A program made the translations under genes and the position numbers. Below are positions 7,880 to 54,719 of a stretch of DNA of 64,000 nt, in pieces. Numbering within the stretch: position 1 is the stretch's first letter; every line of letters begins with the position of its first letter. Source of the DNA: Flectonema sp. DT1601 (taxonomy: Eukaryota > Euglenozoa > Diplonemea > Diplonemida > Diplonemidae); NCBI GenBank assembly GCA_964019425.1, contig OZ025820.1:744001-808000 (forward strand). Direction: 5' to 3'. The notes below the pieces were generated by a model. That model was not told the origin of the DNA and searched no databases. It saw only the letters and a program-made list of their open reading frames with translations.

Positions 7880-10800
7880 ATGTTCGGAGGTGAACAACGA
7901 AGAGCGGTGAGTGGGAGGTCAACAACAACAACCCCATTTTGGGATATTCCTCCCTACATGATAGGAGGAAGTGATGATTTCCCTTTAGTTGAAGTAGCCA
8001 TGAGATGGGAGAGTTTACTCGGAGGACTCCTCGAAGGAATGGAAATAATCGATGGATTGAATTTTATAATAAATGAATTCCCAAACATAATAAGAAATAA
8101 AGGAATAAAACAAGTCTTACTGGCATCTGGAGGACTCTCCATGGGAAGACGTGAAATGAACAGTTTGTACTACCCATGTCTAATACAAGTAGCTCAATGT
8201 ACACTTGAAAAGCTAACGCAGTATGAAAATAGTGATTCTCACGTCGTATTGTTGATACTTATGTCTGCGTATGTTTCCCTTCAGAAATGTGTTCGACCAA
8301 CACAAACTCTTCTAAGTGAACAGTTACAGCTTCAGCAATTAAGACAACGAATAGCTGAAGCTGTTACTAAATCAATCATACGAATGGCTACCAAATCTAT
8401 TGAAAACACGAGCGCGTTTCTTTCAGACGTCGAATCACAATTATCATGTCTGGTCTCGTCACTTCAGAGCCTGTCTGGAGAAGGCATAATAAACTTTCAA
8501 CATATCATCAAAGAAGTAATGGCTTCACTTCCATACGGAAAGATAGGAACTTATTCATACGTCATGCTGTTGGAGTATTGCAACGTCTTACCTGATCCTG
8601 ATTTTGTTGATTTCAAAACGAATTCATATCTGATTTCATGGAGAAACATTGTGACTGACTTAGTGATAAACGATCCTAAAGACTTGAGAAGGGCTGCAGA
8701 ACTGTTACTTTATCACATTAAACCCAGAGACGGATCTGATAGGAGTGGAGGAAAAATTGAAAAAATGTCATCATTCGACTTCGACAGATTTATGCACCAC
8801 GCAGCTGAGGGAATCCCACCAGAAGAGACGTGGTCATTATTAGGAAGTAAACAAGATGGAGAAGTATTAGCTGTTGGTCGGGGTACTGAATATGATGAGG
8901 GAGAAGATGATGAAAACAACCACAACATCACCTCAACTGGTCAAGATACACAAGATCGTACAACACGACCTGCTCTTGGTCGTGGTTTACAACTTATGTT
9001 TGGAAGATATTTTAGTTGTCATACAAGTCAATCTGAAGCTCCATCAAGCACTTCAACTTATCCACCTCAATCTCGCTCATCCCAACCTTGGAGAATATCA
9101 GCAGACATGGTTGGTATTTGGTATTATGGAACTCTGAACTTCGAAATCACTTCTTCTGGTATGTTTTCTATTGAAGTAGTCTTGGTTATATTATCTTCAA
9201 AAACCCTAATATTTATAAAACAGGTATATTTATAGAAAGAGTTGGAAGACAACAAGTCGAAGGATCAATTCGTTGGGTTAGCGATGCGACAGACTTACCT
9301 CGATACCCAGGACAGAGATTCCATCCGAGTTATGTTTGTAAATTATCTGATGGAGGAGTACTATGGATGAGATTGTTTAATCCAACTAATCAGAGAGGAG
9401 AGGAATTGAGAGTATTGGAAGTCGCTTATCACAACAATTGCAGGGAGATAATTCTCCTACAAGAATCAGCAGTTGGAGTCCCTGAACATATAATACACGA
9501 ACTCACTGCATCGAGAGTCTTGGCTACTAAAGAAGATTTTATTGTTGGTGTGGAGTGCAGTGTTCTGTTCACTGCGAGACTGATACTTTCTAACCTGAGA
9601 AGTTCACCAATTCCCGGACATGAAAATACTTTCAAAGAAGCGTTAGAGTGTGCTCTAAGAGCACTCGGTCCGAGTACGACCACAGTCCTCGCAAAGTTAG
9701 AGATGTACGACTTTAGTGACTTTCATCCTTACTCAATGCTGACAGTAGTAAAATGTCTTATTAGTATCGGTCCTACAAATCACGAACGTATCTTTGCAGC
9801 TGATGGATGGTTTCTCGAACAATCAAAAAAGAATCCTTGCATTAACTTAGTAACATGTTTAGGACTTGCACTTCACAACGACTTAAACGTTCTACCAGCT
9901 CACTGTGTTTCTATATTGAAATCTGTTGCTGCGAGGAAAGCCACAGACGGTTCTATAGGCGATCCGATCTCGGTAATCTACTGTTTGAACTTGGTGACAA
10001 GACATGATTTTGACGGTATTTGGACCTGGGTAAATGGATACAAAGGACGTGCATACAACAGTGCGTTCAGAATCCATGGTCATTTTGTTGAACTCTTAGA
10101 TCCTTTATTTACTTCAGGAGAGGTAACGATGATTCACTATTCTGAAGTTTCAGTTAAAATAGAAATATCAACCCAGAATAGTCAAAGCGGATCGGGTGAC
10201 TCCGCAGACGCAAATCAGAAGATAGGAATTGAAGGTCATCAGGTTGAGGACTTAGATGGTGAGGGTAAACCTAACACGGTGATAACAATTGTAATGGCAC
10301 ATGAAATATCATCGGAAGGTGAAATTATAAATCCGAAAAGAAAATGTGGCTACTGGCTTCGATACTGTAAACTAGTCATGTCTGACGACGACTTCGAACG
10401 ACCGAGTGAATTCGTTCGCGAAGATCCAGTTCAAGACTCTCCAAACGATCACAGAGACGAGTGGTCTTCAAAAGCTATAAATGTCTGTCTCAAACAACTC
10501 GAAGACAGCACTACTGGTTGGCCTGCTCAAAGATTTAATCAAGGAGCTGGAGCATACGATTTACTAACTCACACATTCCCTGATCATCGAGTAGTAAATA
10601 CTTCATCAGAGTTTGATGACTTCAGTCTTCGTTTATGGGACCTCGCAACACAACAGATTGTTAAGAGTGGAAGGTTTACGTTACCAATGAAACATCATGA
10701 CTTAGATTTATGGGTTTTAACTACTGCAGCTGATTTGTTATCAGACGATTCTCATGGACCTGTCTCCAGGACGACGGGTGACTTATCGAAGTTATGTGGA

Positions 10801-13800
10801 ATCAGAAGAAGAGCTGCATGGACGCTTCTCACTAATTATTTCCAAATAAGAACAGTTGACTGGGTTGCTGTACCTGTCCAGCTAGCACATGTCAATGCTA
10901 TTAAAGACGTTTATCCTGCGGCTGAGCAATTCGCTGACAGGATTCAAACAGCTATGAAAACACTTCAACAACGAGTCGAGTCTCACAGAGTCTCAAAGAT
11001 TCAGTTGAAAAGCATAGAACGGTACGTCTCTATATTATCGAGTAACGGTGTTGATTGTAGTTGGCAAAAGTGTAATCAAGAGTTCAGTAATGTTAACCAA
11101 GGGATTTATAGAAATGCCAGAATTCTGAGAGAATTAGTTGAAAAATGGAACGTTTCTGACGCCGATGATCTTCTCTCTCGACTCGAAACCCTCATCAGAT
11201 CAAAAGAAGCAGTTGAGCTCTGCGACTTAGAACTCTGTCATGAAGAGAGTACTAAAGTACTGCAGCCGGTAATTGATTTAGCAAATACAACAAGTCCTTT
11301 GTTGAAAGCTCACTTTCTAAAGTTAGCGGGTGGGGTTCCCACCCCGCTAATCAACTTCGCAGACGCATTTAAGAAAACTTGTAAAAAAGTTGCTTCCCTA
11401 ACTGTGAACACAACTGTTTCAGAAGCTGTCGCATCGCTGCATCCTCCAAATGGAAATTTCACCGAAGGAAAGAGGGAACAAGAACAAAGATTACTACGAA
11501 CTCTCGGATGCAGTGAAGAAGTTGTTGAAGCGTTACTTGAGGGAGCTCTTCCTCTTCGGTTTATGTTACATGACTTGGAATGTTTTCGAGTACTCGCTAC
11601 CAACCCACCCGATGATCTAAAATTACATTCCAACTTCTTCAACGGTGAGACCATCCTACTCTGGAACAACAGTGATTCCGTTCTATTAGTTGACAGCATT
11701 GCGAAGGTTCAGGAAGTTCGAGCTGCGTCTGCTGGTTGTACTCATCGAGTTCTTCAAATAATGAAAACAGTTCTTCTTTGTTCTAATCTTGTCAGGTTTA
11801 CTCGTGAGAATCCAGAAGCACAAGATGCGGGTCTGTCATCAGTCTTATCGAATAGTAGGGATTTACAACATGCGTCTTTTCAAACATTCTTAGACTGTTG
11901 CAACTACGTCAATCCCTTTGTCGCAGCCTCCGCCAAACACGTTGAAAACTATCAAAAACAACAACAAAAGATAGCCAGAGGTGAGGAACCAGGTGTTATC
12001 TTACGGACTCCTATCAACTGCAATAGTTCTTGGGATGGAGGACCAGGTTTTTGGGAAAGTCTGAAGTCAAGCTTTGGTGACACTGGGTATGAAAATATCA
12101 TTGCTGTCCAAGAAATGTTGCTCAAAACTACAGAGGACCAGAAAGTCCAACAGCTGGAGAAGATGATTAGAGAACAAAATGGTACCACCGATAAACTAAT
12201 TGAAGTCTGCCGTGATATTAGCGGACTACATGAGAATATAGACGCAGCTCTTGTGGTAATACACCTCCCAGCTACTGGTCAGCCTAGTCTTCAATGTATC
12301 TTCTCAACTATCTCATGGACTGATGCAGAGTATCAAGACTTAGTGTATAGAGCAACTCTTCAAAGAGACCTTTCGGATCATTTGAGGACTTTTGTTTCTC
12401 AAGCGAGAGAAGTCTTACGAGCTTACAATGCTGCTTGTAGAGTCTTTTCAGAAGGTCATTTGGAATTTCGCTCTCGAAAGCTAACCTTTAAGCATAACGA
12501 TGCTTCTAGAATAACAACTATCTTACAAGGACTGCTAGGACAGTGGGTTGGTGGTGAGACAACATCTGTGTTTTATGAAGCGTGTAAAAACTATCCAGAG
12601 CTTGCATGTGTTGCACCTGCTGAGCTTGTCCGCATGGCTGAGCTTATGAGGGGAGTCTCTTCAATCGGATCTCTTACTGTTGATGAGAGTAAGAAGTATT
12701 GTAAACCTTGGAGACAGGGTCGGAGAAGAACAATAAAAAAAGATTCCGTGAAATCAATCGATGAGAGAGTAGAGCACACTGATGAATCTCCTCCTTCAAA
12801 AATAAAACCGACACCACTCTCAGCTATTCCTCCCTCAGTCGCTAAATTCTACAAACCATCCGAAGCTAAACTACCTAAACATTCAAAATCGAGTGTTACA
12901 TTGGAAGGTGCGGGTGAAGCTGACGGTGTTTTCATTCAGTCACTGTATACCTATCAGAAATCACCATCAGGAATACCTGGAGAAGGATCAAAGATGGAAT
13001 CTCACAACACAAAACAAGATTCAAAATCAACAGAAAATCCGAAATCAAAACCGACTGGTGTAGACAGCGACAATGGAGATTCATATGTAATGACACCAGT
13101 AAATGGAGGATGGGCTGTCTACAGAAACAGATCGTATGATTCAGAAAGACTAATGAAATCTGTTGCAACTCATGGAGGACATCTTCAACCATGGGAAATG
13201 GGTGATTGGACTTTAGGAGACACCTGCCTATCTGCTGTAAGAGCCACACCAGACGATGGTAATTCAGCTATAACTATTTGGTCACAACCAAGTAACTACT
13301 CTGATAGAGATAAACACATCTCAATAGTAGGAATTCAAAGTATTGATGGACTGTTAACTCATGTAGATAATAATTCATTATATATTAAAGCTGTTGAGAG
13401 ATACACTCTTTGGGAATCCTTTGGATTTGAGAAAGGAATGAGAATAATCTCAGTCAACAACGAAAAAGGCAGCGCTTCAGAACTAAATAATTCACTTGAA
13501 AAAGCAGCAAAATCCGGAACTAGATTTAACGTCACGCTAGTACCAGCTTGGATATGGTCGGTGGTTGCTTCAGACTTAGAGAAGTCTCAATCATCAAGGT
13601 TAGTTTCAAAGGTAGAAAGTAACAGTGTTCCTAGCTTAGCACTCAGCCCAGCAGCAGGATCACAATGGAGAATAAAAGTCGGGGGTAATGTTTCAGGTAT
13701 GAGAATAGGTCTATGCACACCAAACATCAACATCTCTTTACGGAAAGTCGACAGCGGAGAAAACAGTCCAGTTTCTTGGTGGCTACTTCGTTGTGGACTT

Positions 13801-16800
13801 CTTCGTCACAATGGAACTGACTACGACGTGACTCGACCATTCAAAGCAGGTGACATTATAACAGTCTGTCATGATCCTATCAATAAAAGGATTACATTCT
13901 TATTAAATAATGAAACAATTAGAGCTTCTTTTGAAGATGTCTCAACCACTGAGAACTTAAGACCCGTAGTCTACCTTCTTCACGAAACAGCATCTGCAGA
14001 GATTAGCCTTGGTGCTCCTGTAACTAATGTTATGAAATGGGACAAAGAACACAAGTCGGATTTAATTGAAATATCTCCTGAAGGGTTTACTGCTTCTATC
14101 AAGCAAGATGATTCGGCTCGTGGTGCAGTTATTGGTGATCAGATATTTAGGGGACCTGGACCTCACTCTTTTGAATTTTTGGTAACAGGTTCTGGTGTTG
14201 CTGAATGCTATTTCGGTGTAGCTCCTCCGGGAGTTTACTTAGACATGTGTAGGAATAAAGGAACTGATTTATTCGGACTTACGATACGACCAGACGGAGG
14301 CATCTTCAGTCTGGAGAACAAAATAATTCATACCATTCAAAAACCAAAAACAACCGGTATGCTTGTAGCTGGAGATCGAATAACATTCGTAATGGATCTT
14401 GGAGCTGGTTCTATTGAAATCAGCAGAGGAGGAGAACGACTGGTCCACACTTGTGAAATAAAAAACCTCCCCACAATAGAAGGACCTCTCGTACCGTATT
14501 GTGTCTTTATGGGTAAATGTCAATATAAATGTACTCTCGTAGACGTAACACCTCAAACCTACATATCACCTGTTGGAGAGCCAAGTGTAGTTGTAAAGGG
14601 AAGTAGCTCTAGTGTTGATGGTGTCTATGAGCAGAGTTTACCAACTTATATTCGTGAAGATGGGTTGTTTACGATTCAATCATGGAATGGTCGGTGGTGT
14701 GTTGCTGATGCAGCAGATGTTCCTGTTGCTTGGTCAGATGAAGTACCTCCGCTTCCATTGGGAAGCCACCCGCTTCAATGGAGCGTCGTTAGTAATTTTA
14801 AAAGTACTCCATCGACTTTAAGAATTATAACACCATACAAGATTGGTAGTCGGGATTCTCAATTAAAACAACTACTCTATTTGGATAATGAATCAGTTAG
14901 TCCTTATCCTCACAGCACTACTTATTCAAGTAGCGTACTCCACTTGGCATATTGCAGTGAAGGGTGTTGGATTGTTACAGAAAAAGGAAATAATAAAAAC
15001 AATGTTGTCTTAGCAGCAATGGAAGAAGTACTACTACCGCACCATTGCATGACATGGGCATTTGGTGATGGAGAAAAGTTTTACATTGATGATAGAATCT
15101 CTATTGTTTCAACTAATGATGAAGTAGTAAGAATAGATCCTATCACAAGTACTCCATGGATATCATCGGAATGTGACAGTAAGTGGAATACTCTTATCGA
15201 TTATGAAGTTACTCTGCCAACAAATGGTCTCAGTCTCTATCCAGAGTGTAATCTCGGTACTGCTGTTAGAACTACTTCAGATCAGTGTTTAGATTCTATG
15301 ACTTATCAAGAGTTATCAGGTTGGCATATAGTTGAAAACACTACTCACAGACGATGCACTGCACCAGAACTCAGATTAGCACTTAGTGAAGCGGCTAAAG
15401 GTAGTCCTTGTGGAGTGGAGTTAACGATGAATTGGAAATCAGTACAAGAAGCAGTGGAATCTGTTAGGAAATCAGCTGAAGGTCAACTCCACCGAATTGG
15501 TTCTTTTCTAAAGCAACTGCGTCAAAGAAACATCCAAGAAGGGAATACTTCTCTTGGATATGAGAGTTCAATTTCAATTCAAAATTTCAATCTCAACGAA
15601 GCGAAATTCGGTCAAATGCAATCAAAAACTATCGAAGGTAATTTAATCGATGCGAGTCGTCTTCCGTCAGCTGACAGACGAATCTTTGGATTATCTTTAT
15701 TCAACGAGAATGTACAGCATTTTCATATACTTGATTGCAGTCAACAAACACCTCCTGAGGACATCAGAGCATTCATCGTATTTTATAAATTACTAACAGT
15801 TGGTAGATTAGTACTACTAAACTTACAGGTATTGCCGCCTGATATTCAGAATGAAGTTCGTAAGGCTGCTGAAGAAGAACATCTCCACAAACAGTTGATC
15901 GCAATTATTACGGAAGGTATAGGAACTGACGAAAGTATTTCATATGTTGACGCTCAGTCGTGTGATGTTCGATGGAGAAAATACGCTCATGAACGAGTTG
16001 CTAAGTTAAAGAAGTTCGAATCGATTACATATTTTGATCAACCAGCTGGAACTGGAAAATCATACACGATCGAAAAATTGACACGGAATCGAACTGTAAC
16101 AAAATTAGACTTAGACAGTACTAAGATCACAATGGAGTCGGTGTGTTCTAAACTGATGGCTCCACTAAGAGGTAAGCAAGGTTTACTTGTTATAAATGTG
16201 GGTCATGACACTGATCCAGCATTCGTTAACAGATGTTTGGATGGCTTAGCACTTTTCGGTAAACTAACTTCTGCATCAGGTCTGACAGTCTCAACACCAA
16301 AGACAGGTTGGAAACTGATCGTCGAATTCCAACAAATCTGGAGACGTCCAGACGGTACAAGTGACATCACACTGTTAGCATGTAGAGGTCTAGCAGAACT
16401 TGGTACCCTCGCTCCTTATGATATTGAAGCTATTCCTGGTGCGTTAGCAGGGTTAGAATTCTTACATAATACCCTCGACTTCTTACCAAAGAATGACACC
16501 GACACTTCAATAAGAATGCTCGCTCTTGGATTACGAGATAATCCTGAAGAAAGTCTTCATGATGTTGGACAACAACAAACATCTCAACAAGAACAACAGG
16601 AACCTGTACCAGAAGATCCAGTAGCTACTGAGGAACTCCGACAGGAGATTATTCTGTTCCGAAAGAAACTTCAAACAGCGTCTGCGAGAATCATCACCCG
16701 GTCTTTGAAGTTTCTTTCAAACGGACATGCGATCTTTGCTGCAGCAAAGAATGCAGTCCTCTCCTCTCCGTGTATAAGAGAGACTAGGAAGTTAGTAGCT

Positions 16801-19800
16801 TTGAGTTTAGTTCATGAGATGCGTCATTTTGTTAATCCATCAGATGAGAATCACTTTCATCTTCACCCATCGTACATTGCGTCAATGACTCAATTTAGTG
16901 GCGACACTCCTCCAGATATTCTTGAAGCAGTTAAAAACTGGGACGAAGAACGACAAACTTCACAAAATCGAAACGCTGCACATGGAGACCGAACTGGGTC
17001 TTCAACAACTGAAGCACCAGACTTACATAATAAACCATTAGCAAAACATGTAATGTTGCTTGCTGAGGAATTAGGATTAAAAATTGGAGCTTGTGCGCAC
17101 CGTCTATCAGAAAAGAATTATGTCCTCATACCTGACTTTTTACAAAAACTACTACAAGTAGCTAGCCACGTAAGACTTTGTGATCCAGCTGTCTTACAAG
17201 GACCATCTGGAACAGGAAAAAGTTGTGCTGTTGATATTATTACTGAACTCATGCAACTACCTCTTCAAGGAAGGGCAAAAGGTGGTTGTAGGGACATTGC
17301 ATTTGAATTAGAAAAGTTTCTTCGAACTGACAGGACACTTAAAAAACAGTTTCCTAACAACATAAGCGATCAAGTCGGTGACCGAATGAAGATGCTCTGG
17401 TTTATAACTTGCAGTAAGTCATATCAGCAATGCATTGATTGTTTCGATATTCTAGTTGAGAGAAAGTGTTTTTCTGGTCTTCATTTTATATGCAAAGCTA
17501 CCAAGTACCGATTTGGACCAATGGTATGTGACACAAAGACTAATAAAAGCCTTCGTCTCTACATTGAGACTGATGCGAATTTTCGAAATGCTATCGATTT
17601 AGTAATTAGAACCGACGACATTGACAACTTAGATCCGAAATGTGATGCCAGTCTCAAGATACTAAGAGATGCTTTGTATCATGTAATATACGGATTCTCA
17701 AAGCAAGATGGTGGATTGTTTACGGAACAGCAGAGATGGTTTTTTTCAGGGATTTTAAAATCCTCTGAGATGGAAGAATTAGTTGGTTCCAGTCATGATG
17801 TTGTTATTCAAATACTTAACAAAAACCCTCGTTTAGAAGCTAAACTAGAATGGGCAAGAGATGCTGTTAGGAGGGCAGGTGCAAACGGAGCAGCTGTATG
17901 CCAATTAGTTAGAGAGCACATGAGATCAGAGATTCGTGCTTCTCCTCTTCTGAAACCGTCACCAGAACTCCTCAGAGCTTTAGCTGGCGGAGATGACATC
18001 ACTGGTCCAAGTGGTGAAGACTTGGCAAGAACTATTAAATTATATCAACAGATGCCAAGTGAACCAGCGACAATTACAATCCTCATGCGTTATGGGATGA
18101 CTCCTGACTTACTTTTTGATCTCTGTCGTCCAACTCTTGAGCGAGCTCTTCTATGTCCAGCAATGCAATTCTTAGTAATGATCGATGAAATGAACGCCAC
18201 GAATATGTTGGGACTCGTAAAGAGAATAGTCATTGATAAACAATGGGATACTTGGGGTGATGCACATCCAGAAACAGAAGGAAAACTACCAGAGAATGTA
18301 GCTTTTGTAGGAGCTGTTAACCCTGCAAAGAAAGATCAGTATTTAGAAGGAGTGGGTAACATCGACATTAGTATTAATGAAGACCTTGATTTTGATGTGA
18401 CACCAATGCCGTCTTCTTTGATGGAACATATTGTTCCATGGAAACAGTTAGCAGAAGGGCAACGAGAACTTTTCATAACGAGACTAATCTCAAGCAACAG
18501 AAACTTATTCGCATCTAATGTCAATTCTGATCAAATAAATTTACTTGGAACAGTCTTACTGCATGCTCATCGATTTGTACAATCTGTTTATATAAACAAA
18601 AGAGCTACCGTATCACAACGTGATATCCATCGTGCAATGAAAGTCTTTGATTTCTTTTTTGGAAGACGATACGACTATATAAACTTTAAAGGTGAATTAA
18701 CGAATGACGCATGGGTGTGTGCTCTGTCATCTATGTTATTGGGAATTGCTGTTAGCTATTATTACAGATTGTCTACTGAGAACAGAGAAGCCTTATCAGT
18801 AAGGTTAACATCAGTAGTCACTTCTGCAACCTCTATAAGATCACTTCCCGAAGGTGTCACTTTTGCGAAAGTTGCTAGAAATGCGGTTTCACATTTTTGC
18901 AGTCCTCAACACTTGACACTTCCTGATGCTGTATACGCTCATCAAGCTTTATTAGAAAATTTATTCGTTCAGATGGTTTGCTTTGAGAATCGATTGGCTG
19001 TAATATTACACGGTCCTCCTGGAACTTCAAAGACTCTTTCTAATAACATCATAAGAGATAATATGACAGGACGCGGTGAGTTCTGGAATACTTTGTGTTA
19101 CATTTCTGAGGTATGTTTTTTTTTTTTTGTTTTTTTTTTTGGTAGTCGTGATGATAAAAAAGAATATTCGCTACTTACTACACCAGTTCGGCTGGTGGAT
19201 GCAAAAATACATTCTACATGAAACCCTCTGATATCTGTTTGCATCGCAATCTGTCCGACTCTCTTCGTATTCTCATTACTTGTTAGCTGATGTGATGATA
19301 ACAAATATGAATATTCGCTAAGACACCTGTAGGGTGAATGTAATTACTATTTAGTCTGATGTCTGTTGCAAACTTCTTGACCAGCCTCACTACTTGATCA
19401 ACGTGATGATAAAAAAGAATATTCGCTACTTACTACACCGGTTCGGCCGGTGGATGCAAAAATACATTCTACATGAAATACCCTGATGAGAAACTTGTTC
19501 CTCTTGTTTGTCCAACTTCAGGGACATAAGTACTTGAAGAGCCTTAATAGATCTCCCAACCTGTCGTGATGATAAAAAAGAATATTCGCTACTTACTACA
19601 CCAGTTCGGCTGGTGGATGCAAAAATACATTCTACATGAAACCCTCTGATATCTGTTTGCACCGCAATCAGTCCGACTCTCTTCGTATTCTCATTACTTG
19701 TTAGCTGATGTGATGATAACAAATATGAATATTCGCTAAGACACCTGTAGGGTGAATGTAATTACTATTTAGTCTGATGTCTGTTGCAAACTTCTTGACC

Positions 19801-22800
19801 AGCCTCACTACTTGATCGACGTGATGATAAAAAAGAATATTCGCTACTTACTACACCGGTTCGGCTGGTGGATGCAAAAATACATTCTACATGAAATACC
19901 CTGATGAGAAACTTGTTCCTCTTGTTTGTCCAACTTCAGGGACATAAATACTTGAAGAGCCCTAATAGATCTCCCAACCTGTCGTGATGATAAAAAAGAA
20001 TATTCGCTACTTACTACACCAGTTCGGCTGGTGGATGCAAAAATACATTCTACATGAAACCCTCTGATATCTGTTTGCACCGCAATCTGTCCGACTCTCT
20101 TCGTATTCTCATTACTTGTTAGCTGATGTGATGATAACAAATATGAATATTCGCTAAGACACCTGTAGGGTGAATGTAATTACTATTTAGTCTGATGCCT
20201 GTTGCAAACTTCTTGACCAGCCTCACTACTTGATCAACGTGATGATAAAAAAGAATATTCGCTACTTACTACACCGGTTCGGCCGGTGGATGCAAAAATA
20301 CATTCTACATGAAACCCTCTGATATCTGTTTGCACCGCAATCTGTCCGACTCTCTTCGTATTCTCATTACTTGTTAGCTGATGTGATGATAACAAATATG
20401 AATATTCGCTAAGACACCTGTAGGGTGAATGTAATTACTATTTAGTCTGATGCCTGTTGCAAACTTCTTGACCAGCCTCACTACTTGATCGACGTGATGA
20501 TAAAAAAGAATATTCGCTACTTACTACACCGGTTCGGCCGGTGGATGCAAAAATACATTCTACATGAAATACCCTGATGAGAAACTTGTTCCTCTTGTTT
20601 GTTCAACTTCCTGGACATAAGTACTTGAAGAGCCCTAATAGATCTCCCCAACCTGTCGTGATGATAAAAAAGAATATTCGCTACTTACTACACCGGTTCG
20701 GCTGGTGGATGCAAAAATACATTCTACATGAAATACCCTGATGAGAAACTTGTTCCTCTTGTTTGTTCAACTTCCTGGACATAAGTACTTGAAGAGCCTT
20801 AATAGATCTCCCAACCTGTCGTGATGATAAAAAAGAATATTCGCTACTTACTACACCAGTTCGGCTGGTGGATGCAAAAATACATTCTACATGAAATACC
20901 CTGATGAGAAACTTGTTCTTCTTGTTTGTCCAACCTCCTGGGCATAAGTACTTGAAGAGCCCTAATAGATCTCCCCAACCTGTCGTGATGATAAAAAAGA
21001 ATATTCGCTACTTACTACACCAGTTCGGCTGGTGGATGCAAAAATACATTCTACATGAAATACCCTGATGAGAAACTTGTTCTTCTTGTTTGTCCAACCT
21101 CCTGGGCATAAGTACTTGAAGAGCCCTAATAGATCTCCCCAACCTGTCGTGATGATAAAAAAGAATATTCGCTACTTACTACACCAGTTCGGCTGGTGGA
21201 TGCAAAAATACATTCTACATGAAACCCTCTGATATCTGTTTGCACCGCAATCTGTCCGACTCTCTTCGTATTCTCATTACTTGTTAGCTGATGTGATGAT
21301 AACAAATATGAATATTCGCTAAGACACCTGTAGGGTGAATGTAATTACTATTTAGTCTGATGTCTGTTGCAAACTTCTTGACCAGCCTCACTACTTGATC
21401 AACGTGATGATAAAAAAGAATATTCGCTACTTACTACACCAGTTCGGCTGGTGGATGCAAAAATACATTCTACATGAAACCCTCTGATATCTGTTTGCAC
21501 CGCAATCAGTCCGACTCTCTTCGTATTCTCATTACTTGTTAGCTGATGTGATGATAACAAATATGAATATTCGCTAAGACACCTGTAGGGTGAATGTAAT
21601 TACTATTTAGTCTGATGTCTGTTGCAAACTTCTTGACCAGCCTCACTACTTGATCAACGTGATGATAAAAAAGAATATTCGCTACTTACTACACCGGTTC
21701 GGCCGGTGGATGCAAAAATACATTCTACATGAAACCCTCTGATATCTGTTTGCACCGCAATCTGTCCGACTCTCTTCGTATTCTCATTACTTGTTAGCTG
21801 ATGTGATGATAACAAATATGAATATTCGCTAAGACACCTGTAGGGTGAATGTAATTACTATTTAGTCTGATGTCTGTTGCAAACTTCTTGACCAGCCTCA
21901 CTACTTGATCGACGTGATGATAAAAAAGAATATTCGCTACTTACTACACCGGTTCGGCCGGTGGATGCAAAAATACATTCTACATGAAATACCCTGATGA
22001 GAAACTTGTTCCTCTTGTTTGTTCAACTTCCTGGACATAAGTACTTGAAGAGCCTTAATAGATCTCCCAACCTGTCGTGATGATAAAAAAGAATATTCGC
22101 TACTTACTACACCAGTTCGGCTCGTGGATGCAAAAATACATTCTACATGAAATACCCTGATGAGAAACTTGTTCTTCTTGTTTGTCCAACCTCCTGGGCA
22201 TAAGTACTTGAAGAGCCCTAATAGATCTCCCCAACCTGTCGTGATGATAAAAAAGAATATTCGCTACTTACTACACCAGTTCGGCTGGTGGATGCAAAAA
22301 TACATTCTACATGAAATACCCTGATGAGAAACTTGTTCTTCTTGTTTGTCCAACCTCCTGGGCATAAGTACTTGAAGAGCCCTAATAGATCTCCCCAACC
22401 TGTCGTGATGATAAAAAAGAATATTCGCTACTTACTACACCAGTTCGGCTGGTGGATGCAAAAATACATTCTACATGAAACCCTCTGATATCTGTTTGCA
22501 CCGCAATCTGTCCGACTCTCTTCGTATTCTCATTACTTGTTAGCTGATGTGATGATAACAAATATGAATATTCGCTAAGACACCTGTAGGGTGAATGTAA
22601 TTACTATTTAGTCTGATGCCTGTTGCAAACTTCTTGACCAGCCTCACTACTTGATCAACGTGATGATAAAAAAGAATATTCGCTACTTACTACACCGGTT
22701 CGGCCGGTGGATGCAAAAATACATTCTACATGAAACCCTCTGATATCTGTTTGCACCGCAATCAGTCCGACTCTCTTCGTATTCTCATTACTTGTTAGCT

Positions 22801-25800
22801 GATGTGATGATAACAAATATGAATATTCGCTAAGACACCTGTAGGGTGAATGTAATTACTATTTAGTCTGATGTCTGTTGCAAACTTCTTGACCAGCCTC
22901 ACTACTTGATCAACGTGATGATAAAAAAGAATATTCGCTACTTACTACACCGGTTCGGCCGGTGGATGCAAAAATACATTCTACATGAAATATCCTGATG
23001 AGAAACTTGTTCCTCTTGTTTGTTCAACTTCCTGGACATAAGTACTTGAAGAGCCCTAATAGATCTCCCCAACCTGTCGTGATGATAAAAAAGAATATTC
23101 GCTACTTACTACACCAGTTCGGCTGGTGGATGCAAAAATACATTCTACATGAAACCCTCTGATATCTGTTTGCACCGCAATCAGTCCGACTCTCTTCGTA
23201 TTCTCATTACTTGTTAGCTGATGTGATGATAACAAATATGAATATTCGCTAAGACACCTGTAGGGTGAATGTAATTACTATTTAGTCTGATGTCTGTTGC
23301 AAACTTCTTGACCAGCCTCACTACTTGATCAACGTGATGATAAAAAAGAATATTCGCTACTTACTACACCGGTTCGGCCGGTGGATGCAAAAATACATTC
23401 TACATGAAATATCCTGATGAGAAACTTGTTCCTCTTGTTTGTTCAACTTCCTGGACATAAGTACTTGAAGAGCCCTAATAGATCTCCCCAACCTGTCGTG
23501 ATGATAAAAAAGAATATTCGCTACTTACTACACCGGTTCGGCCGGTGGATGCAAAAATACATTCTACATGAAACCCTCTGATATCTGTTTGCACCGCAAT
23601 CTGTCCGACTCTCTTCGTATTCTCATTACTTGTTAGCTGATGTGATGATAACAAATATGAATATTCGCTAAGACACCTGTAGGGTGAATGTAATTACTAT
23701 TTAGTCTGATGTCTGTTGCAAACTTCTTGACCAGCCTCACTACTTGATCGACGTGATGATAAAAAAGAATATTCGCTACTTACTACACCAGTTCGGCTGG
23801 TGGATGCAAAAATACATTCTACATGAAATACCCTGATGAGAAACTTGTTCCTCTTGTTTGTCCAACTTCAGGGACATAAGTACTTGAAGAGCCCTAATAG
23901 ATCTCCCCAACCTGTCGTGATGATAAAAAAGAATATTCGCTACTTACTACACCAGTTCGGCTGGTGGATGCAAAAATACATTCTACATGAAACCCTCTGA
24001 TATCTGTTTGCACCGCAATCTGTCCGACTCTCTTACTTATTCACTCTGTGCATCAGTAACCCTGGTGTGATCACTTCCGATGGGTCGGTACAGTGTCTGC
24101 GAGGTGGTGAAAGACGTTTCGTTTTGCTGTTTTGGGATAGTGGTTGCTTTCATTTATATTACCAAAGAAAGTGATCTATCCTGTTCTGGATGTAACCTTT
24201 TGGTTGATCACAGCAGGGAACCTAGCTGGGATTTGTCAATAGTCATTACAGAGAAATCAACAGTCTTTCTTTTGATTATTTCTGTTTCGTCACCGACGTG
24301 ATGATAAAAAAGAATATTCGCTACTTACAACACCGGTTCGGCTGGTGGATGCAAAAATACATTCTACAATGAAAAAATCTGATTGTATCTGTCTCTGTTA
24401 TTATATTTACTTTACAATTAAAAGGGAATGAATTACTAATACAACATACTATTCACCACACACAGGTTTGTCGGTACCAAGGTTCATCTCAAAGCAGTGC
24501 CGAAGAAATAAGAAAGAAATGTCAAGAAGCTTATAATATTCAGAAGAGTCATGATGCTCATGGTCATCGTAATAAAAGATGTTTGCTATTTGTGGATGAG
24601 GCTGGACTTGTTAAGGGAGAAGGTAATCAAAGAAAATGGGCATTAAAAGTTCTCCACTACTACTTAGAAGGAGCGAATATTGCTTCTGTTTTAATGACTA
24701 ACCAACCACTAGATCCAGCGATAAGTAACAGGTGTATTGAAGTGTACATGGATAAACCCCGTCCTGAGGAACTATCTTCAATGTGTGCTGGAATTCTTCA
24801 TAGAGATGGAATGCATGGATTAACTGATTTAGCGAGATCTGTTGTTCCTGCCTGTTGCTCTGCATTCCACTCGTTATTATCAATAGTAGATAGTGAAGAA
24901 ACGACAGTAGGAACTGATAAACATGATTTAGGAACTCTTCCTGAAGACTATCAATGGTGGTTTGGTCTCCGTGATTTATTTCACATGATGAGATACATAA
25001 GAAGATATCAACCGACTACATCATCTCCATCACTAATTGACGTTACTCCATCAATTATTACTCGGGCGTTAGAAAGAAACTTTAACGGACCAAATAAAAT
25101 GTTTGATCGAGTGCTATCAGTATTTGGTAACGCTTTAGGAAACGTCGATGAGAACTTCTCTGCTGATAAATTAGGAGAGAGTTTACGTTGCAAATTAGAC
25201 ATAATTATCGACAGCATCCACGATAACAACAGAGCATCAGAACATTGTTCTGGTAAGAATCTGAATGACATGTGGGTACGTTTTAAACTCCTTGTTGACG
25301 ACACGGATGATGGTTCTGCTCTTCAACTTCTACGACAAACCGGAATTGAAGAATTTCAAGATGCTAAAGTATTATCACTTTCAGCTGTAAGTCAGGGAGA
25401 TGATTTAATGCCTGTCACAGTTGTTAGTCAAATCACTGCTGCTATGGAGACTGGGAAGACTGTTTGGCTTACAAACACTAGAGAAATAGATGCATGTTTA
25501 TTTGATGTATTTAATCAGTCCTATGTCGTAGCAAGTAATGGAAGAGGTGAAATTCTACACTTTGTAGCAGTAGCAGTTGGGGCAGCACTGGAGTATAAGA
25601 AAGTTCATCGAGACTTTCAATGTATTGTTCAAGTTACTAAACGAGAGTTGCAAGGAAGGGAAAAAGTACTTCCATCTCCATTCCTAAATAGATTAGAGAA
25701 GTTTACGATATCTGTTTCTGATGTAGTTCAGCATGCGATCAATAGACTGTCACCAGAAGAACAACAAACATGTCATATGTTACGTAACAAACTTCAACAC

Positions 25801-28800
25801 TTCGAAAACACTCTCACAGTGTCTAGATACAATTGCTTATTCTCTGACTGTAAATCCGACACATTCGATTCACTCTTATTGGAAGCTCTTCAAAGCAGTT
25901 CTCTTATCCCAATCCGATACAGCAACAGACTTAAGAATGACAGCGCCTTATGTAGATTCTTATACCCAACTGACAATGTTGTTGCTATTTGGAGATCTCT
26001 TTCTACTCGATTGCTACAACTAATGCATCCAGAGGGAATGTTATTAGCACAACGAGTATTAAAAGAACACAGTCCTTGTTATCTAAGAGCGTTCTTTAGA
26101 GACTTAGAGCCATGGTCGCTGACTAATTATTTTGTGTTCTTATCAAATCAAGAGGAAGGCTGGTTGAAATCGGTGGTGTACTCCCCTGCTAATGTAGACT
26201 TTCCATCATTATTAAAGAACATTCCCCGTTGTAAGTACGTATCTGTCGATACGTTGTTAGAGAGTGAGAGAGGTCAAGAGTTTCTTAAAGAATCGCTTTA
26301 CTCATTTTGCAGTGATACCAGCGAGGATTCAGATTCTATTTTCGCGGTCATTATTAGTCCTGAATCGATAGGTCAGCCAGAATATCACGAAATGCAGCAC
26401 ATTCTGGACACCCCTCCTGATGAAATGAAAGACGACCACCTAAACAAGGCTGTCGTACTTTTACAAGTCGTTCCCGCGGGTTGGGAAGAAGCAGGAGATT
26501 ACTTACAGAAAGTAACTCCTTTATTTGGAACTGGTTGGGACAATGTATACATAGATGCAGCTGCAGAGAATGTTGGCGCTAATATAATGCAATACATTGA
26601 TCTGAGTATCGCTGGTAAAATACCACCACAACCACAACCAGAATGGAGAGACATGGAAGGAGTTGTTGACCAAGCTCTGAACTCACTATTCCAAGCTCAG
26701 GCTGAGTCTAAAACTCTTTGGGTTGAAGTTCCTTCTGAGGATCCGGCTGCGGCGCTGTATGATTTGAAACGTCCTTTTGGTGAACAGGTTTCAGTCGCAA
26801 AGAAACTTCTAGAAGTGTGTCCCATCGTACGCAAGACACTCTTAAAGCTGTACAGACAGAGACTACCAACTCCCGAGGAACTGATTGCTATGGCAGTTGA
26901 GGTCGCTTCTCATGATAAACCAACTCATTCATTAGTTCAAAGACTTCTCGATGAGGAGTTAAAAGCACCGACAGCACTTGTGACTCTGGCGCTTCGTCTT
27001 TTATGTGATGATAGAAATGCTTCAGTTTTGCTTTCGTTTTCTAAAAATAAAACTCCTGAAGAGATTTCTCTTCACAAAACATGTGATGACGTAATTGGAA
27101 GAGTCCTCCATCGACAGGCAACTCACACTACTTTCGATCAGCTTCGTAGAATGAGAACTGTTGACCAGCCTTCATTGTTTGTAGGAGCTTCATCACCTAG
27201 CCTCCCAGGATCATTCGCAATCCGTGAGTATCTTCAATCAGGTATCACAGCCATACAATGGAAATCTAATCCTGTAACTGAATCGGCTAAGCTTGAAAAA
27301 TTATACAGCGACTTTGATGTTATAGAAATCATACATTCAAACAGTAGATATATGCATTTATTCTTTCAAGATTGTATTAAGAGTCTTGTTAAACACAATT
27401 CATGTGAAGTTTGCACGATAACAGCTAAATGGGTATACAAGTTAGTTTGTTGTTTGCATTGGTCAGTCTTTAAAAAACCAGCTACAGTCTGGTCAGCAGT
27501 AACCCTCTGCACCACTCACAGTGACGTCATTAAAGGCTATATATTAGCAATGTTACCATTGGCTGCTACATCAGTACTTCAGCATTTGGAGGGTGAGAAA
27601 TGTGAATATTTTTTTAACACGGTTTTGGATGAAAAGGCATCATCGAGCAGGTCTGTATCATGGGTAGCAAACACACTGTCTCCGATGTTATTGAAGACTG
27701 TACTTCCTGTGATGGTTAATAAATTAGATCAACTTTTAGTGGCATTATCGTGTGTGTTAAGTAGAGTAGAACAGACTGTCGAAGGGAAGAAACATCTTTC
27801 AAGTTGGTTTATAGCTTCGGAGATGTTGCGGAGAGAGGATCGATCAGTTCCTGAGATTCGAACTTTCATCGAATCTTGTGACGATTTGAAATTATTTATT
27901 GACCTTCCGACTTTAGCACTTGCTCTTGATAAGAACAAAGCAGCTATCCCAGGTGTAACAATTCAACTCGCTGAATACGCAATCGCATTATCGCAATCAG
28001 GTCAGAATGACTCTCTCGTCTCAAAGGTTACTAACATCGTCTTGAAAAATATTTCATCTGTTGATGTGTCTCGTGGATTCTGTTGTAGAGCTTTAGAAGT
28101 AATTCTTCGTTTATTAAAACCTCAAGACATCCTCAATGCTGCTCAAGAGCAGTTTTCAATTCGCAAACCAGGTCTTGTTGACAACGCTGACATCCCTCCA
28201 GTTCTTAGCATCTTAGAATTTCCTATTGTCTTAACAGATGTGTACATCGCTTTGTTTGACGTGTCTTATGACGCCGCCTTGGGATTGAATGGTGAAAGGT
28301 TAGATGAAGTTGGTTTATTAGCAAAGGAAATGATAACGCTATTTGAATCACCGAAATCATCAAACACTGCTGAAGATTTATTTCACAAAGTACGCACGTG
28401 TGCGATTGAACAGGCTTTTGTTAGTGCTCTTGCGAGGGCTTTTATACGAACAGCTGATGATATATCATGGGAACCTCAATTTATGAGTGATCCAGAAATA
28501 ACGAAATGCATAAGCAAAGTAGCAAAGGTTCTGTTTGAAGAACCTGGATTTGTGTGTCCAGAACGTGGAAGTGAACAGGACACAGATCTCATCTCAAATC
28601 CAACTAACGCAGCGATTGAATCGAATCAACTTACTTTTATAAAAGGTCTCGAACAAGGAACTGGTGCAATCAGAGGAATGGGTACCAAGGCTATGTTAGA
28701 ATATTTACGTGATCAGGTTTCACAGGAAAATGATCAACCAGGATCGATAATCAAAGTTTGTGGAGAAGGAATGCGTCATAAATGTCAAAACGCTGAATCC

Positions 28801-31800
28801 TTAGCAACGAGACCAGGTGATTTACCTTTTGTTTATAAACTTGACGACCCTCTTCATGACTCGTATGTTTCTCTTCAGAGACAGTTAACACTTTGCGCTG
28901 ACGAGGTAAACGTTCAATCACTTGGCTTATCAAAAGTATTGTCAAAAATAGAAATCATGCTTTCGAAGCATAAGATTGAGGAAGTTCGTCTTCTCGTATT
29001 TTATGTAGGACTGAGATGCTTCTTTGGTGAGGGTGCTATTCATCCTTTGGCAAAAGAAATTTCAATTGATCCGTACCTCCAAAAGGAATTATCCCTTTCT
29101 GAAAGACAACAACGAATCCTACACATCGCTTATGACAAGAGTCAGTTGGATGTTATCAGCCAACGTGAGAATAGCAAGGCAGGTGTTTTTGCTTCTCTTC
29201 AAAAAGGATTCTCCGTCGACTGGACTGAAACAATTTGCGCTGCATGGGCTGTAGCTGCATCTCTTCCAGACACATTCTTTGGATCTTTATTGTTATCGGT
29301 TGAAGATCAAAAAGATTATTTCATACCTGGGGATCGAACTGGAGGCTCCATGACTGCTGGCGGCAACTACAAATTTGACTGTGTGACTCAGCTAGATGAG
29401 TCGGGTAACTTAGACTCTTACGCAAATAAACAACCAGTTCTATCAACTGGAGCATGTTACTTACTATGGGGATTAGAGTTTGGGTTGTTGGCGTTACAAT
29501 TGGCAATCTTTCCTGAAGCGTTAGACACTTTGTGGCATTACATGTTCAGTAATACACTGCACTCAAGGACTTATGGGTATCAACAAAACTTAAGTAATTA
29601 TGTTCACATGTTAAATCAAGTAACTGAGAGATCAATGGCATACCATTTACACATGGGTACTCACACTGGGTTAACAGTTGATGAAGCACAGCGTATGTTT
29701 GCGTTCTTCTGCTACCATCTAGTGGTAGGAGATCCTGTAGAGATTGCTGCTTCTAAAAGAATGAACAGTCAAACGAGAGATGATGCTCTTGCAGTTGAAA
29801 AGATTGTTGAACGATTCTGGAAGGAACACACAACAACACAAAAAGCAACCCTATCAAGACCACAATCAGATATGTGTCATACCTTAAGAGCTTTAACACA
29901 GTGGATTGATAAAGGTGAAAGTAATTGTTTAGTTCGTTCAGGAGTTGTTTTGCTACGACTTGACTGTCTCGGAGGTGGTGAAAAATCAATGCTGCTCGAT
30001 CTGCACCTCCATGAAAGGGAAAAACTTCGAATCACAGCACCACTCATAATAAAAATATTAAATTTTTGCTGGTCAGTTTTTGAAGGACTGAGTGGTAAGC
30101 TGCTGTTTACGACTCAAGATGACACTCCGAATGCCTATCGAGGAGTTATGGAACTTCTACGTGAACATGTTCAACCAGCACAGTACGAAAGAACTGTGAA
30201 GCTTTTCTCTGATATAAAACGGCTTTGGAATTCCTTCCGAAAGAATGTTGGACCCATCGACTTTGAATGCCAAGAAGGAGGAATAAACATCGACATGGAT
30301 CAACACAGTTCTATGACAGGTGCTGTTGGTTTACCCGATACGTTAGACTTTTGGATAACAGAATCAGATAGTGAAGACCCTTCTCATAAGAATCTAATTA
30401 AGGCGGCACTCATATCTCTAATTGATAAATATAATCACACTCTTGACGTACTAACTCCATTTGGAATATCTACTGACGATGTTGATCCGATGCTACTCGA
30501 TGCTTGTAAACCAGATTTGCTTCATCAATGTCATGATTCTATCCTCACAGTCTCTCGCAGTTTTGTCCCAAGAAATGGAACACCTCAATGGAAAGATATC
30601 GAAAGTGAAGTGTCATTTTCTTCTGGTCTTTTCGCACCGAAATTCTTACCAGCTCATTTACCATCATTCGTATACACTTCAGAGACCACTCCTATCAAGT
30701 CTGCTGAGGTTGAACAGATGGCCACCGCTTTGGTATGACTTTAGATGAAATATCTTTTTTTTTTTTTTTTTTTTGAAAAAAAATAACAAAATAATAATAA
30801 ACAGCTTGCTCTACAACCTGACAGACACTTAACACCCCTACCGGTGGGTTTTGAGGAACAGTTGAGAAAATGTTGCAACAACTTCACAGAAGCCCAAGTA
30901 TGTACATACGCAATTCATCAGCCTAATCTGAACAATTGTCTTCTTACAATGAAAATTATAAATTTAATAAAAAAAAACAGGTAACTACTATGGTGTTAGG
31001 GCTCATGGCTGCTTTCAAAGCTAGAAACACATCTCCTGAAATGTCTCTTTATAGCGCACTTGGTACTCGATGGGAAGGTGCTGTTAGCTCATTTTCTTCA
31101 AAGTCTACACTACCTCTGTGTGAAAGACAGATGAAGGGATTTGTATGTAACAGTTTTTTGAGTTTTATTATTTATTTTCATAACGTATGTAGAAGGATGA
31201 TATAAAAAAGAAAACACTAAATACAGTTGGTTTGTCATTTAAGAGAAACACTCATACTGTTCGTTGATAAGATGGAACGAACCGACTGGTTGACAACAGA
31301 TGTGAGCAGTGCTTATAAGGTTAAAATGTCTGAAGAAACAATAGCGGAAATTGAAAGGAATTTGGAAGCTTATCAAAACACTATTCCGTTAGACGTTGTG
31401 ATAGAAGAGTTGACTGTTTTATTGACAGCTTTGAGAAATTCAGCATCACACACGGAATACCTCCAACCTGATATCGAACTCGGTACTTTCCTTGAGGACG
31501 TATTGATGTGGACTGTCGATGGAACTGCTTGCTCTGTTTTGAAATCTATTCCGATGTCTTGTCTCGTTGATCTGACGCTTCAAATCAAACGATCTCTTGC
31601 TCGTATTCGTAGACAGCAACAGTCAACAACATGGTCAGAAGAAGGTTCTGATCTTAACGAAAAACCACATTTCATAGCCCCCAATCTAGACTACATATCT
31701 GGTGATGGAATCGGGTTAACCCTCAACGATGAGTTGATTGTTATAGATGTTCAAAAAGGATCACCTGCAGACCAATCTGGTTTGAAAAAAGGCATTCAAA

Positions 31801-44102: not shown

Positions 44103-44150
44103 GAATTTATTGTATCTACTACTGAATTCCAAAGTAATCGTTTTTATGGT

Positions 44151-44179
44151 TCTTTAATCCCCTCTTTTTATCACCACAG
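44151..44179 (+). promoter_or_regulatory. Putative spliced-leader acceptor, vault protein gene
   Basis: Pyrimidine tract TCCCCTCTTTTTATCACCACAG ends 16 nt before the ATG at 44196. Confidence 0.6.
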
Positions 44180-44195
44180 TTATACTTACACTACT

Positions 44196-46454
44196 ATGGG
44201 ATGTGGTCTAACATCTTTGGGAGAATCGGAGCAACTTGTAGTAACAACAACTGAAGGTTTAAGGGAGGTAATTAACGGACCAGGTCGTCAATGGATCGGT
44301 ACAAAAGTTATTCAAGCACGCAGATCAGCACTCGTATTACGAGACAGAGAATATGTCAGGATAAAGGATATACAAGATGGAACACAGAGACTCGAACTTG
44401 GGCCTGCAAAACTATTTTTGGGAAAATATGATGAAGTTGATGGTAGTGTTCTTACCAGACCTGTCTTAGAGATTGGTGAGTTTATAAAAATCAGAAAACC
44501 TGATGGAACAACTCGAATCGTTCACGGACCAGCAGTCGTGGCGTTAGAGGACCCTCTTGAAAAACTTGGAGAAGTTGAAGTAACCCCTTCACTCACAGAC
44601 CAACAATACTGTATTCTAATTAACAACACAACAAAAGTTCGTCAAGTTAAATACGGTCCTGCTGTAGTCCTCCTTGAAGCAGAAGAAGAAGTTGTTGGAA
44701 CATACAAACTCCCGATACTTGCAACAGGAGAGTACGTAATAATTCGAGACATCATTACTGGAAAGAAGATATCAGTAATTGGACCAACTGTCCATCGTCC
44801 TTCTCCTTCTGAAAAGGTCGGTGGAATAAACAAACTACCAGTTCTGCAACAAGTCGAATACTGCAAAATAAGAAACGAAGAGACCGGAATAGTTAGAGTA
44901 GCAACCGGTCCTTGTGTATGTGAGTTAGGACCGTATGATTCAGTTATCTTGGAGCCACAGTCTCTTCCGATATTACAAAAAGATGAGTATTGTAAAATAG
45001 CTGACGATCGCGAAGGAACCATCCGCTGTGCTTACGGTCCAACAGTTCCAGAAATAGGACCATATGAACAGCTTTCAGATGGAGGTGTGCAAAAATGTCC
45101 TGACCTCTCTGCTGATGAATTTCTAGTGATTCGCAATGAAGAAGATGGTATCTTAAGAAATGTTGTTGGACCAATGCTGTACCGACCTTCTGAGTTCGAT
45201 ACATTTTCAAAACCAGAAAAGATTGTAAACCTTCGTAAAAATGAATACATCCGCTACAGAGATGACAAAGGTCATATTCGTGTCGAAAGAGGAGAGCAGA
45301 GAGTCATACCAGATCCTTTAGAAACTTCAATTGATGAAGGTGTCTGTGAAGCAATAAACATTGACAGTCATCACGCAGTCATGGTCAGGAATACTGATGA
45401 TGGGTCGTTAGAACTTATTACTAAGAGTGGATTGTTCTTTCCAAAAGCATATCAGGAAATAATCGAAGTTCAATCAAAGATTATTTTGGAAAAGTATCAA
45501 ACTGTCGTATGCAGAGCTGAGACAGGGAGATTTTACTACGCATCTGGAGACACTGAACTATCGGATGAAGAGCGTGGACCAGGACCAGATTTCTTCCTTC
45601 CTCCTTATCATGAAATCGTTAAGCATTCTTGGTCAACTGATTTAAAAAAGGAACACTTAACATCAGAACTTGTCTGGAAGTTCGATTCCCGCCCATCATA
45701 CATGAATTATGAATTTTGCTGCAGGACTCTTGACAATGTCGCTCTGGTTATAGACGTTACCTTTTTTTGGAGAATTATTGATGTTCGTTCAATGGTTGAC
45801 AGTACAGCAGATGCACCAGGAGATACATGCACACACGCAAGGTCAATGATAATGCAAGAGATAAGTAAAATAAAACTGATGGACTTCCTGGAGTGCTTCA
45901 ACGACGTTATCCGTCGCAGCTGTTTGAAAGATGATTTCTATAACAAGCGTGGAGTGGAATTACTCAGCGTTGAGGTTCTAAAGTTTGAATGCCAATCAGA
46001 AGAAACCAATCGCATTTTACAAGAAATCATCAAAGAAACATGTGACAGATTGAAATTCAAAGAGAGACAACGTGGTGAAAATGAGGTATCCATGGCCCGT
46101 CTTGAAGGCGAAATCGAAGAAGAAAAACGCAAAGAAGAACTTGTAGAAGTAAAAAAGAGCCATCTCAAAACCGAAGCTCGTATCGAAGGAGAAGCTGAGG
46201 GTACAAGAATAGCAGCGTTTATTGGTAAACTTGCTGAACAAGATGGAATGGGATTTGATAAAGCCATGAAAATATTTGAGATGCTGAAAGATAACGAGTT
46301 TAAAGTTCAGTCTGTGGCTGCTTTGTCACAGGGGAATGCTCAATTGTACGTTACCCCTGATAATGTTAACCTAAACCTTGGAACTTTACACAACCCAACA
46401 ACAACCAGTAGGGCATCGGCCAAAATACCAACACCAAAGGCAGCTGTTTCTTAA
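44196..46454 (+). CDS. Major vault protein family member with MGC N-terminus
   Basis: Predicted 752-residue vault-shell protein. About eight repeats of 50-60 residues follow the MVP pattern 'GPxxxxxxPxE-LPVLxxxEYCxIRxxxTGxxRVxxGP' from residue 30 to about 400. The SPFH-like shoulder follows (HSWSTDLKKEHLTSELVWKF, then LDNVALVIDVTFFWRI, DFLECFNDVIRRS), and then a charged cap helix (EGEIEEEKRKEELVEVKKSH) about residues 625-680. In vaults, 78 copies build a ribonucleoprotein barrel; trypanosomatids also carry several MVP genes (family knowledge). It is shorter than typical MVP (850-900), with a reduced cap/C-terminus. MGCGLTS at the start is a classical dual myristoylation and palmitoylation signal, not expected for a cytosolic vault subunit. 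Could be a membrane-tethered paralogue. Confidence 0.88.
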   Translation: MGCGLTSLGESEQLVVTTTEGLREVINGPGRQWIGTKVIQARRSALVLRDREYVRIKDIQDGTQRLELGPAKLFLGKYDEVDGSVLTRPVLEIGEFIKIRKPDGTTRIVHGPAVVALEDPLEKLGEVEVTPSLTDQQYCILINNTTKVRQVKYGPAVVLLEAEEEVVGTYKLPILATGEYVIIRDIITGKKISVIGPTVHRPSPSEKVGGINKLPVLQQVEYCKIRNEETGIVRVATGPCVCELGPYDSVILEPQSLPILQKDEYCKIADDREGTIRCAYGPTVPEIGPYEQLSDGGVQKCPDLSADEFLVIRNEEDGILRNVVGPMLYRPSEFDTFSKPEKIVNLRKNEYIRYRDDKGHIRVERGEQRVIPDPLETSIDEGVCEAINIDSHHAVMVRNTDDGSLELITKSGLFFPKAYQEIIEVQSKIILEKYQTVVCRAETGRFYYASGDTELSDEERGPGPDFFLPPYHEIVKHSWSTDLKKEHLTSELVWKFDSRPSYMNYEFCCRTLDNVALVIDVTFFWRIIDVRSMVDSTADAPGDTCTHARSMIMQEISKIKLMDFLECFNDVIRRSCLKDDFYNKRGVELLSVEVLKFECQSEETNRILQEIIKETCDRLKFKERQRGENEVSMARLEGEIEEEKRKEELVEVKKSHLKTEARIEGEAEGTRIAAFIGKLAEQDGMGFDKAMKIFEMLKDNEFKVQSVAALSQGNAQLYVTPDNVNLNLGTLHNPTTTSRASAKIPTPKAAVS

Positions 46455-47144
46455 AAACAGCTATCGTTTTTTCTGTTATTTTAATATTTCTTTTTTTTTT
46501 TTTTTGAAAAAATTTCGCTTGCTCGAAGCAAAGCAGAAAGTACTAAAAAAGTGCTTATTTCTTCCATGTTCTCCACGTTCTCAAAAACTGACTCGTCACT
46601 CCCGTAGATAATTGGTTATTGCAATCCGTAACTTGATTGCGAGTTATTGATTGATCATTCATTTACAGAAATTATTGTTGTTTGATCTGCTTGGGATGAT
46701 GTCCCAAAGCTATGAGTTTTTTCCATTTTGAAGATGAATTTTCTTCAAAATTTCAAAATCTTTTTTTTGTACTCACATTTTTCATTCTGTGTATTCGCCG
46801 AGTACCTTTTTTCTCCTATTTGTGTTCTCGTTTTTTAAAATGAGGCACTTTTTTTTTTTTAATTTTAAATACAAAAACAAAAAAGAATGAAAATTTATGC
46901 ATTTTTTTTTTGATTCCTTTTTTCACTCATTAGCAAGTCGCAGTCTATTCACCCATCAGCATTTACCGTTTGCGTCTTGTGAATTACAAGTCTCTTCCTC
47001 TCCGATTTAACACAAAAAAAAAAAGAAAAAAAAAAGAAAAACACTGTTTTACAAAAGTAGTCCAAAGGTAAAGTTATTATTATATTTTTTCATTTATTTC
47101 CTTTTTTTACAGAAAAAAAAAAGGCTTCCCTCACAAAAATCACT
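46455..47144. other. Intergenic region
   Basis: No gene; T and A runs at 46491-46505, 46849-46860 and 47013-47040. Confidence 0.45.
47091..47112 (+). promoter_or_regulatory. Putative spliced-leader acceptor, 189-residue protein gene
   Basis: CATTTATTTCCTTTTTTTACAG, 32 nt before the ATG at 47145. Confidence 0.6.
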
Positions 47145-52354: not shown

Positions 52355-52388
<34 letters not shown>

Positions 52389-52391
<3 letters not shown>

Positions 52392-53077: not shown

Positions 53078-53111
<34 letters not shown>

Positions 53112-54698: not shown

Positions 54699-54719
54699 TA
54701 GGTAGCATATGCCCTGACA

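Follow-up and report, generated by a model that had tools for sequence, protein, structure and literature searches.

In a window of 64,000 nucleotides (nt) from the diplonemid Flectonema sp. DT1601 (contig OZ025820.1, positions 744,001 to 808,000 of the forward strand; coordinates below are those of the window, the whole stretch analysed), an RNF213-like gene is interrupted by an intron that holds a tandem array of short units. Each unit runs from a GTGATGA to a CTGA, motifs that correspond to boxes C and D of small nucleolar RNAs (snoRNAs) of the C/D class. There are two types of unit, A and B, and a third repeated stretch, C, lies between neighbouring A units. The features of the locus are given below.

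9175 to 19110, + strand: RNF213-like open reading frame (ORF) of the host before the intron, its start set from stop to stop; the true exon start perhaps lies slightly downstream
19111 to 24465, + strand: cis-spliced intron of 5,355 nt, GAG/GTATGT ... CAG/G; the frame joins without a stop
19148 to 24382, + strand: tandem array of C/D-like units, 36 in all (25 of type A and 11 of type B), arranged as ABAABAABABAAAAABABABAAAABABAABAABAAA
19148 to 19231, + strand: first A unit, 84 nt, with box C GTGATGA, the antisense element GAATATTCGCTA, the hairpin CACCAG/CTGGTG and box D CTGA
19292 to 19359, + strand: first B unit, 68 nt; all 11 B copies are identical
19487 to 19565, + strand: first of 12 C stretches (79 to 80 nt, between two A units), interpreted as spacer
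24001 to 24297, + strand: 297-nt stretch preceding the last A unit, mostly single-copy, with no Rfam match at the gathering threshold
24298 to 24382, + strand: last A unit, diverged, 85 nt, CTGA end retained
24434 to 24440, + strand: branch-point-like TACTAAT, judged by sequence
24466 to 30738, + strand: host coding sequence after the intron, through the stop codon, recognised by homologs; no Pfam family in this part

Exact box C matches started at 36 positions between 19148 and 24298, every one of them on the + strand and hence in the sense orientation of the host. CTGA lay at offset 80 in 24 of the 25 A units, giving a length of 84 nt, and at offset 81 in the last copy (85 nt); in B, all 11 units had CTGA at offset 64 and a length of 68 nt. 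This count bears out the original prediction of 25 A, 11 B and 12 C elements on the sense strand, and the fixed lengths of 84 and 68 nt that it gave for A and B hold with the last A as the sole exception. The segments between units measured 60 nt from A to B (n = 11) and 43 nt from B to A (n = 11), while those from A to A were the 12 C stretches of 79 nt (n = 4) or 80 nt (n = 8), plus the single 297-nt segment. The 12-mer GAATATTCGCTA, common to A and B, had 36 matches with at most one mismatch in the 64-kb window, where 0.26 were expected, and these were confined to the array. A pattern of box C plus the 12-mer had 0 matches in a collection of viral contigs, and a 19-mer search of a genome-contig collection returned 3 bacterial matches only, about the chance expectation by our own arithmetic. 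The array copies, 96 to 100% alike and mosaic in order, are recent duplicates, and their 36 box C matches cannot be counted as independent of one another; the independent contexts are the two diverged paralogs, A and B, plus a few flank contexts.

In all 36 units a box C (RUGAUGA) close to the 5' end is followed, 50 to 100 nt on, by a box D (CUGA) close to the 3' end. Box C, box D and the 12-mer occur in both A and B, as does an internal hairpin at a matching position, although the two types have different lengths and different 3' halves. Three types of flank, which diverge just before box D, could be told apart among the A units, and CTGA was kept in each. Within the A hairpin, one pair was A-U in 13, G-U in 3 and G-C in 9 of the 25 copies, the neighbouring pair was broken in one other copy, and pairing held in 97.9% of cells (9 chosen copies, 8 distinct) versus at most 58.3% when slid. 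The 11 B copies were invariant whereas the spacers varied, and variable sites numbered 3 of 148 in A plus B versus 13 of 183 in the spacers (p = 0.039, with the last A copy and the four sites that precede box D in A set aside). A and B are thus probably two paralogous box C/D guide RNA genes that have been tandem-amplified in one cis-intron of an RNF213-like gene, and the boxes and the paralogy lend support to their earlier description as C/D-like. We infer that the units would be transcribed, trimmed, bound by protein and directed to targets for methylation.

Judged by sequence, the intron at 19111 to 24465 is real, and the ends originally proposed for it are correct to the base. It shows the properties of a spliceosomal (U2-type) intron, with GT-AG ends, a branch motif and a protein that is conserved over the junction, and the joined coding parts give one frame, 5,402 codons long and uninterrupted by stops. 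The junction was assessed with the 30 proteins listed for the pre-intron region. Sixteen of them (P0019 and P0021 to P0035, with identities of 45% or more in the tested stretch) aligned over the junction and were gapless there, and 12 others, more distant, likewise aligned over it; P0020 ended short of the junction, and P0018, from the same contig, continued into the intron and then stopped. The related genomic proteins P0022 and P0026 to P0028, of 5,516 to 5,792 amino acids (aa), were uninterrupted at the intron position. Since these run on while P0018, of the same source type, stops inside, relatives may lack the intron, which suggests that it was recently gained. The 5' splice site of three diplonemids usually reads G/GTATG (PMC12621601; papers are cited here and below for parts of their text). 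A nearly pure T tract follows the GTATG of the intron, before the first unit (19111 to 19142). A loose GTATGT...YAG pattern gave 11 candidate introns of 65 to 157 nt, among them one of 65 nt upstream in the host gene (9159 to 9223).

The host resembles an RNF213-like AAA+ gene. Its AAA+ core was homologous to P0047, annotated rnf213-alpha-like (23% identity, E 4.1e-5, the weakest among the matches listed), in an alignment that spans Walker A to Walker B. A Pfam scan found a SPRY domain in the first part of the host and no RING finger in either part. The placement of the array in a cis-intron of an RNF213-like AAA+ gene, as first proposed, is supported by the homology over the AAA+ core together with the junction.

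If A and B are guide RNA genes, the host precursor messenger RNA would most likely be cis-spliced and the intron excised, after which the intron would be cut and trimmed around units bound by C/D proteins, yielding many copies of two small RNAs of about 84 and 68 nt. The 12-nt element of both would pair with 28S ribosomal RNA (rRNA) at the conserved U24 methylation region, and the D guide of B would pair with 18S rRNA at the site ACTAAATAGT. An exact partner of the A/B element in the species' own 28S would read TAGCGAATATTC where yeast has TAGCAAATATTC. Pairing was computed with yeast rRNA as the reference. On that sequence, the A element paired at 13 of 14 positions with 25S 1446-1459 and the B element paired over 25S 1448-1463. 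In yeast 25S, U24 guides Am1449 and Gm1450 (PMC5199042, PMC9045821), sites that are also found in human, Arabidopsis and Dictyostelium (PMC8817022). Directly abutting box D, the D guide of B formed 10 base pairs (bp) with 18S 1341-1350, or 13 when G-U pairs are included; the 10-bp fit was reached by 3 of 300 target shuffles, and with a fetched 18S, as with the Rfam consensus, the pairing was 9 bp long. Methylation at the position given by the box D+5 rule would fall on the equivalent of yeast A1345, which is not among the ribose-methylated 18S sites in the consulted part of the table in PMC5199042. Taken as targets, the rRNA fits of A and B are suggestive only.

Several observations weigh against reading A and B as guide RNA genes. 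The array had 0 Rfam matches at the gathering threshold, and run whole with E up to 10 it had no matches either. The pairing of the A hairpin was equalled by 99 of 500 column shuffles, and without C the difference in variation between A plus B and the spacers was lost (p = 0.45), so that the lower variation leans on C, and it leans likewise on the omission of those four sites and of the last copy. A degenerate C'-like GGATG/GAATG lies 3' of the hairpin, and a D' box was not clear by eye. At the ends of the 36 units, the best terminal stem had 1 to 3 pairs, no better than with shuffled flanks, and the units did not fold better than shuffles. A 5'-3' terminal stem is common but not universal, being present in 25 of 47 Dictyostelium snoRNAs, and intron-encoded C/D RNAs without a stem are known (both from PMC8817022, the latter from the title of a reference in it). 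The fit of A at the U24 region carries its one mismatch, and this mismatch is real for at least one eukaryotic 28S (a fetched contig), in which TAGCAAATATTC is present. No rRNA target was found for the D guide of A in the yeast or the fetched rRNA, and because the four bases before A's box D differ between isoforms, that guide is without a conserved target. Finally, rRNA fits as good were obtained with 77 (A), 133 (B), 59 (12-mer) and 21 (D guide of B) per 1000 guide shuffles. The 43-nt spacer fitted rRNA equally (61 shuffles per 1000 on the + strand and 69 on the - strand), and we therefore claim no significance for the fit of A alone.

The high similarity and mosaic order of the copies, the ordinary folding, the missing terminal stem and the statistically weak rRNA fits would all suit a tandem satellite without function, that is, a repeat with a chance GTGATGA and CTGA that spread in the intron by unequal exchange. 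Such a satellite would not be expected to leave the boxes and the antisense element in two diverged paralogs, nor CTGA in three different A contexts, and the weak Rfam matches were enriched for C/D families on the sense strand. With E up to 10, a stretch of one A, B, A and C had 10 weak matches, and in seven of these a C/D family was matched on the + strand by A or B sequence; three length-matched control stretches gave 2 of 13, 0 of 1 and 1 of 5, and the single C/D match in the last of these controls falls on the final A copy. None of the matches reached the cut-off of its family (the best scored 20.8 bits versus a cut-off of 45). We consider a functionless satellite unlikely, and clearly less so than two further explanations. 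The units could be C/D-like RNAs kept as scaffolds or decoys, binding fibrillarin for example and not guiding methylation, much as several snoRNAs in one intron can leave RNA between them as small nucleolar long non-coding RNAs (sno-lncRNAs; PMC11028025); the unconserved D guide of A would agree with such a role, but that of B is invariant and gives the best rRNA fit, and we regard it as very improbable. A nuclear copy of mitochondrial DNA, tandem-amplified like the constant regions of diplonemid minicircles, has a precedent in the 164 tandem copies of a 68-bp mitochondrial stretch in Diplonema papillatum, where introns and untranslated regions hold about 20% of such insertions (PMC10161547), but it leaves the boxes common to A and B unexplained and we regard it as equally improbable.

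The C stretch is read as spacer. With 9 of 80 sites variable it was the most variable part of the array. It does contain a hairpin whose 9 pairs are all intact in 6 distinct rows, but the changes were one-sided and the shuffle control was not discriminating, and the lowest-energy alternative hairpin was broken in some rows. Published rules for the H/ACA-like RNAs of trypanosomatids call for a single hairpin with a stem I of 5 to 8 bp, 0 to 3 nt before the AGA box, and a pseudouridine 13 to 16 nt before the box (PMC2613932). Under these rules the three C variants gave 0 solutions, and 62 to 77 of 300 shuffles had one. The 297-nt stretch gave 36 solutions as a trypanosome-type H/ACA RNA, yet 263 of 300 shuffles also had one, and readings as U14 and U3 found no support in the Rfam searches. 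The failure under the H/ACA-like rules and the high variability leave the earlier view of C as RNA genes unsupported, and the covariance-model search suggested with it yielded nothing in Rfam at the gathering threshold.

Around the host gene, 17 of the 18 ORFs of at least 150 aa lay on the + strand (1680-38442 and 44103-62931), like the unidirectional gene clusters of Euglenozoa. The gene at 44103-46451 resembled that of the major vault protein and encoded a Band 7 domain (48 to 61% identity to several transcriptome proteins), and a long AT-rich stretch at 47715-54701 had no ORFs of 150 aa on either strand. The window also held a helicase gene with 44% identity to the Diplonema papillatum protein P0053 and 82% identity to a transcriptome protein. 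Among the labels of the helicase matches, we take the prefixes Sspe_ and EG_ to stand for Sulcionema and Euglena, and another gene of the window matched entries labelled Hpha, presumably Hemistasia. The named matches thereby indicate a diplonemid source.

Parts of the array's organisation have counterparts elsewhere. In trypanosomatids, snoRNAs are encoded in polycistronic clusters and released from trans-spliced, polyadenylated precursors (PMC6562600), and the clusters of trypanosomatids and Euglena resemble the present array in their head-to-tail, multi-copy box C/D units and in belonging to a related lineage (PMC6562600, PMC2784804, PMC2613932). They differ in being polycistronic, whereas the array described here lies in a cis-intron of a protein gene, and in their H/ACA-like partner, which was not found in the array. 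The intronic clusters of plants and green algae combine several different snoRNAs at low copy number. With these the array shares an arrangement in which a single intron of a protein gene carries several snoRNA genes (PMC7671301, where a paper on clustered intronic genes in Chlamydomonas is also cited). It differs from them in consisting of two types, in 25 and 11 copies. The SNORD113/114 and SNORD115/116 repeats of mammals have one copy per intron. Like the array, they repeat a small number of C/D types in large tandem series, and their copies are homogenised (PMC11028025), but their hosts are non-coding and lie in imprinted domains, and their guides are orphan. U24 (SNORD24; yeast U24, Dictyostelium CD16/CD19) acts on the 28S region that is predicted as the target here (yeast Cm1437, Am1449 and Gm1450; PMC5199042, PMC9045821, PMC8817022); A and B match just one of its two target stretches, and the Rfam searches of the array gave no match to the U24 family.

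The original statement that no such arrangement is known was too strong, as intronic snoRNA clusters have been described (PMC7671301, PMC11028025). What is unusual is the combination: a single cis-intron, in a diplonemid lineage, that carries 25 copies of one C/D type and 11 of another. No paper dedicated to diplonemid snoRNAs was found among the titles and abstract openings of papers holding both words, and neither the D. papillatum genome paper nor the diplonemid intron paper uses the word "snoRNA" in its main text. Tentatively, and with somewhat more doubt than conviction, we propose that, in a lineage whose snoRNA genes normally sit in intergenic, trans-spliced polycistrons, a reiterated C/D cluster moved into a newly gained cis-intron of a giant AAA+ gene, where one splicing event would free up to 36 guides of two types. 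In this way the intron itself would amplify guide dosage, tying the supply of guides for a conserved 28S methylation region to the splicing of the host mRNA. If A and B are indeed guide RNA genes, it may be asked why there are so many copies of two guides, a puzzle because only the sum of guides should count if they serve rRNA alone. The locus would then also offer a natural test of how 36 snoRNAs in one intron become separated, and it would mean that the snoRNA genes of Euglenozoa can be released by cis-splicing as well.

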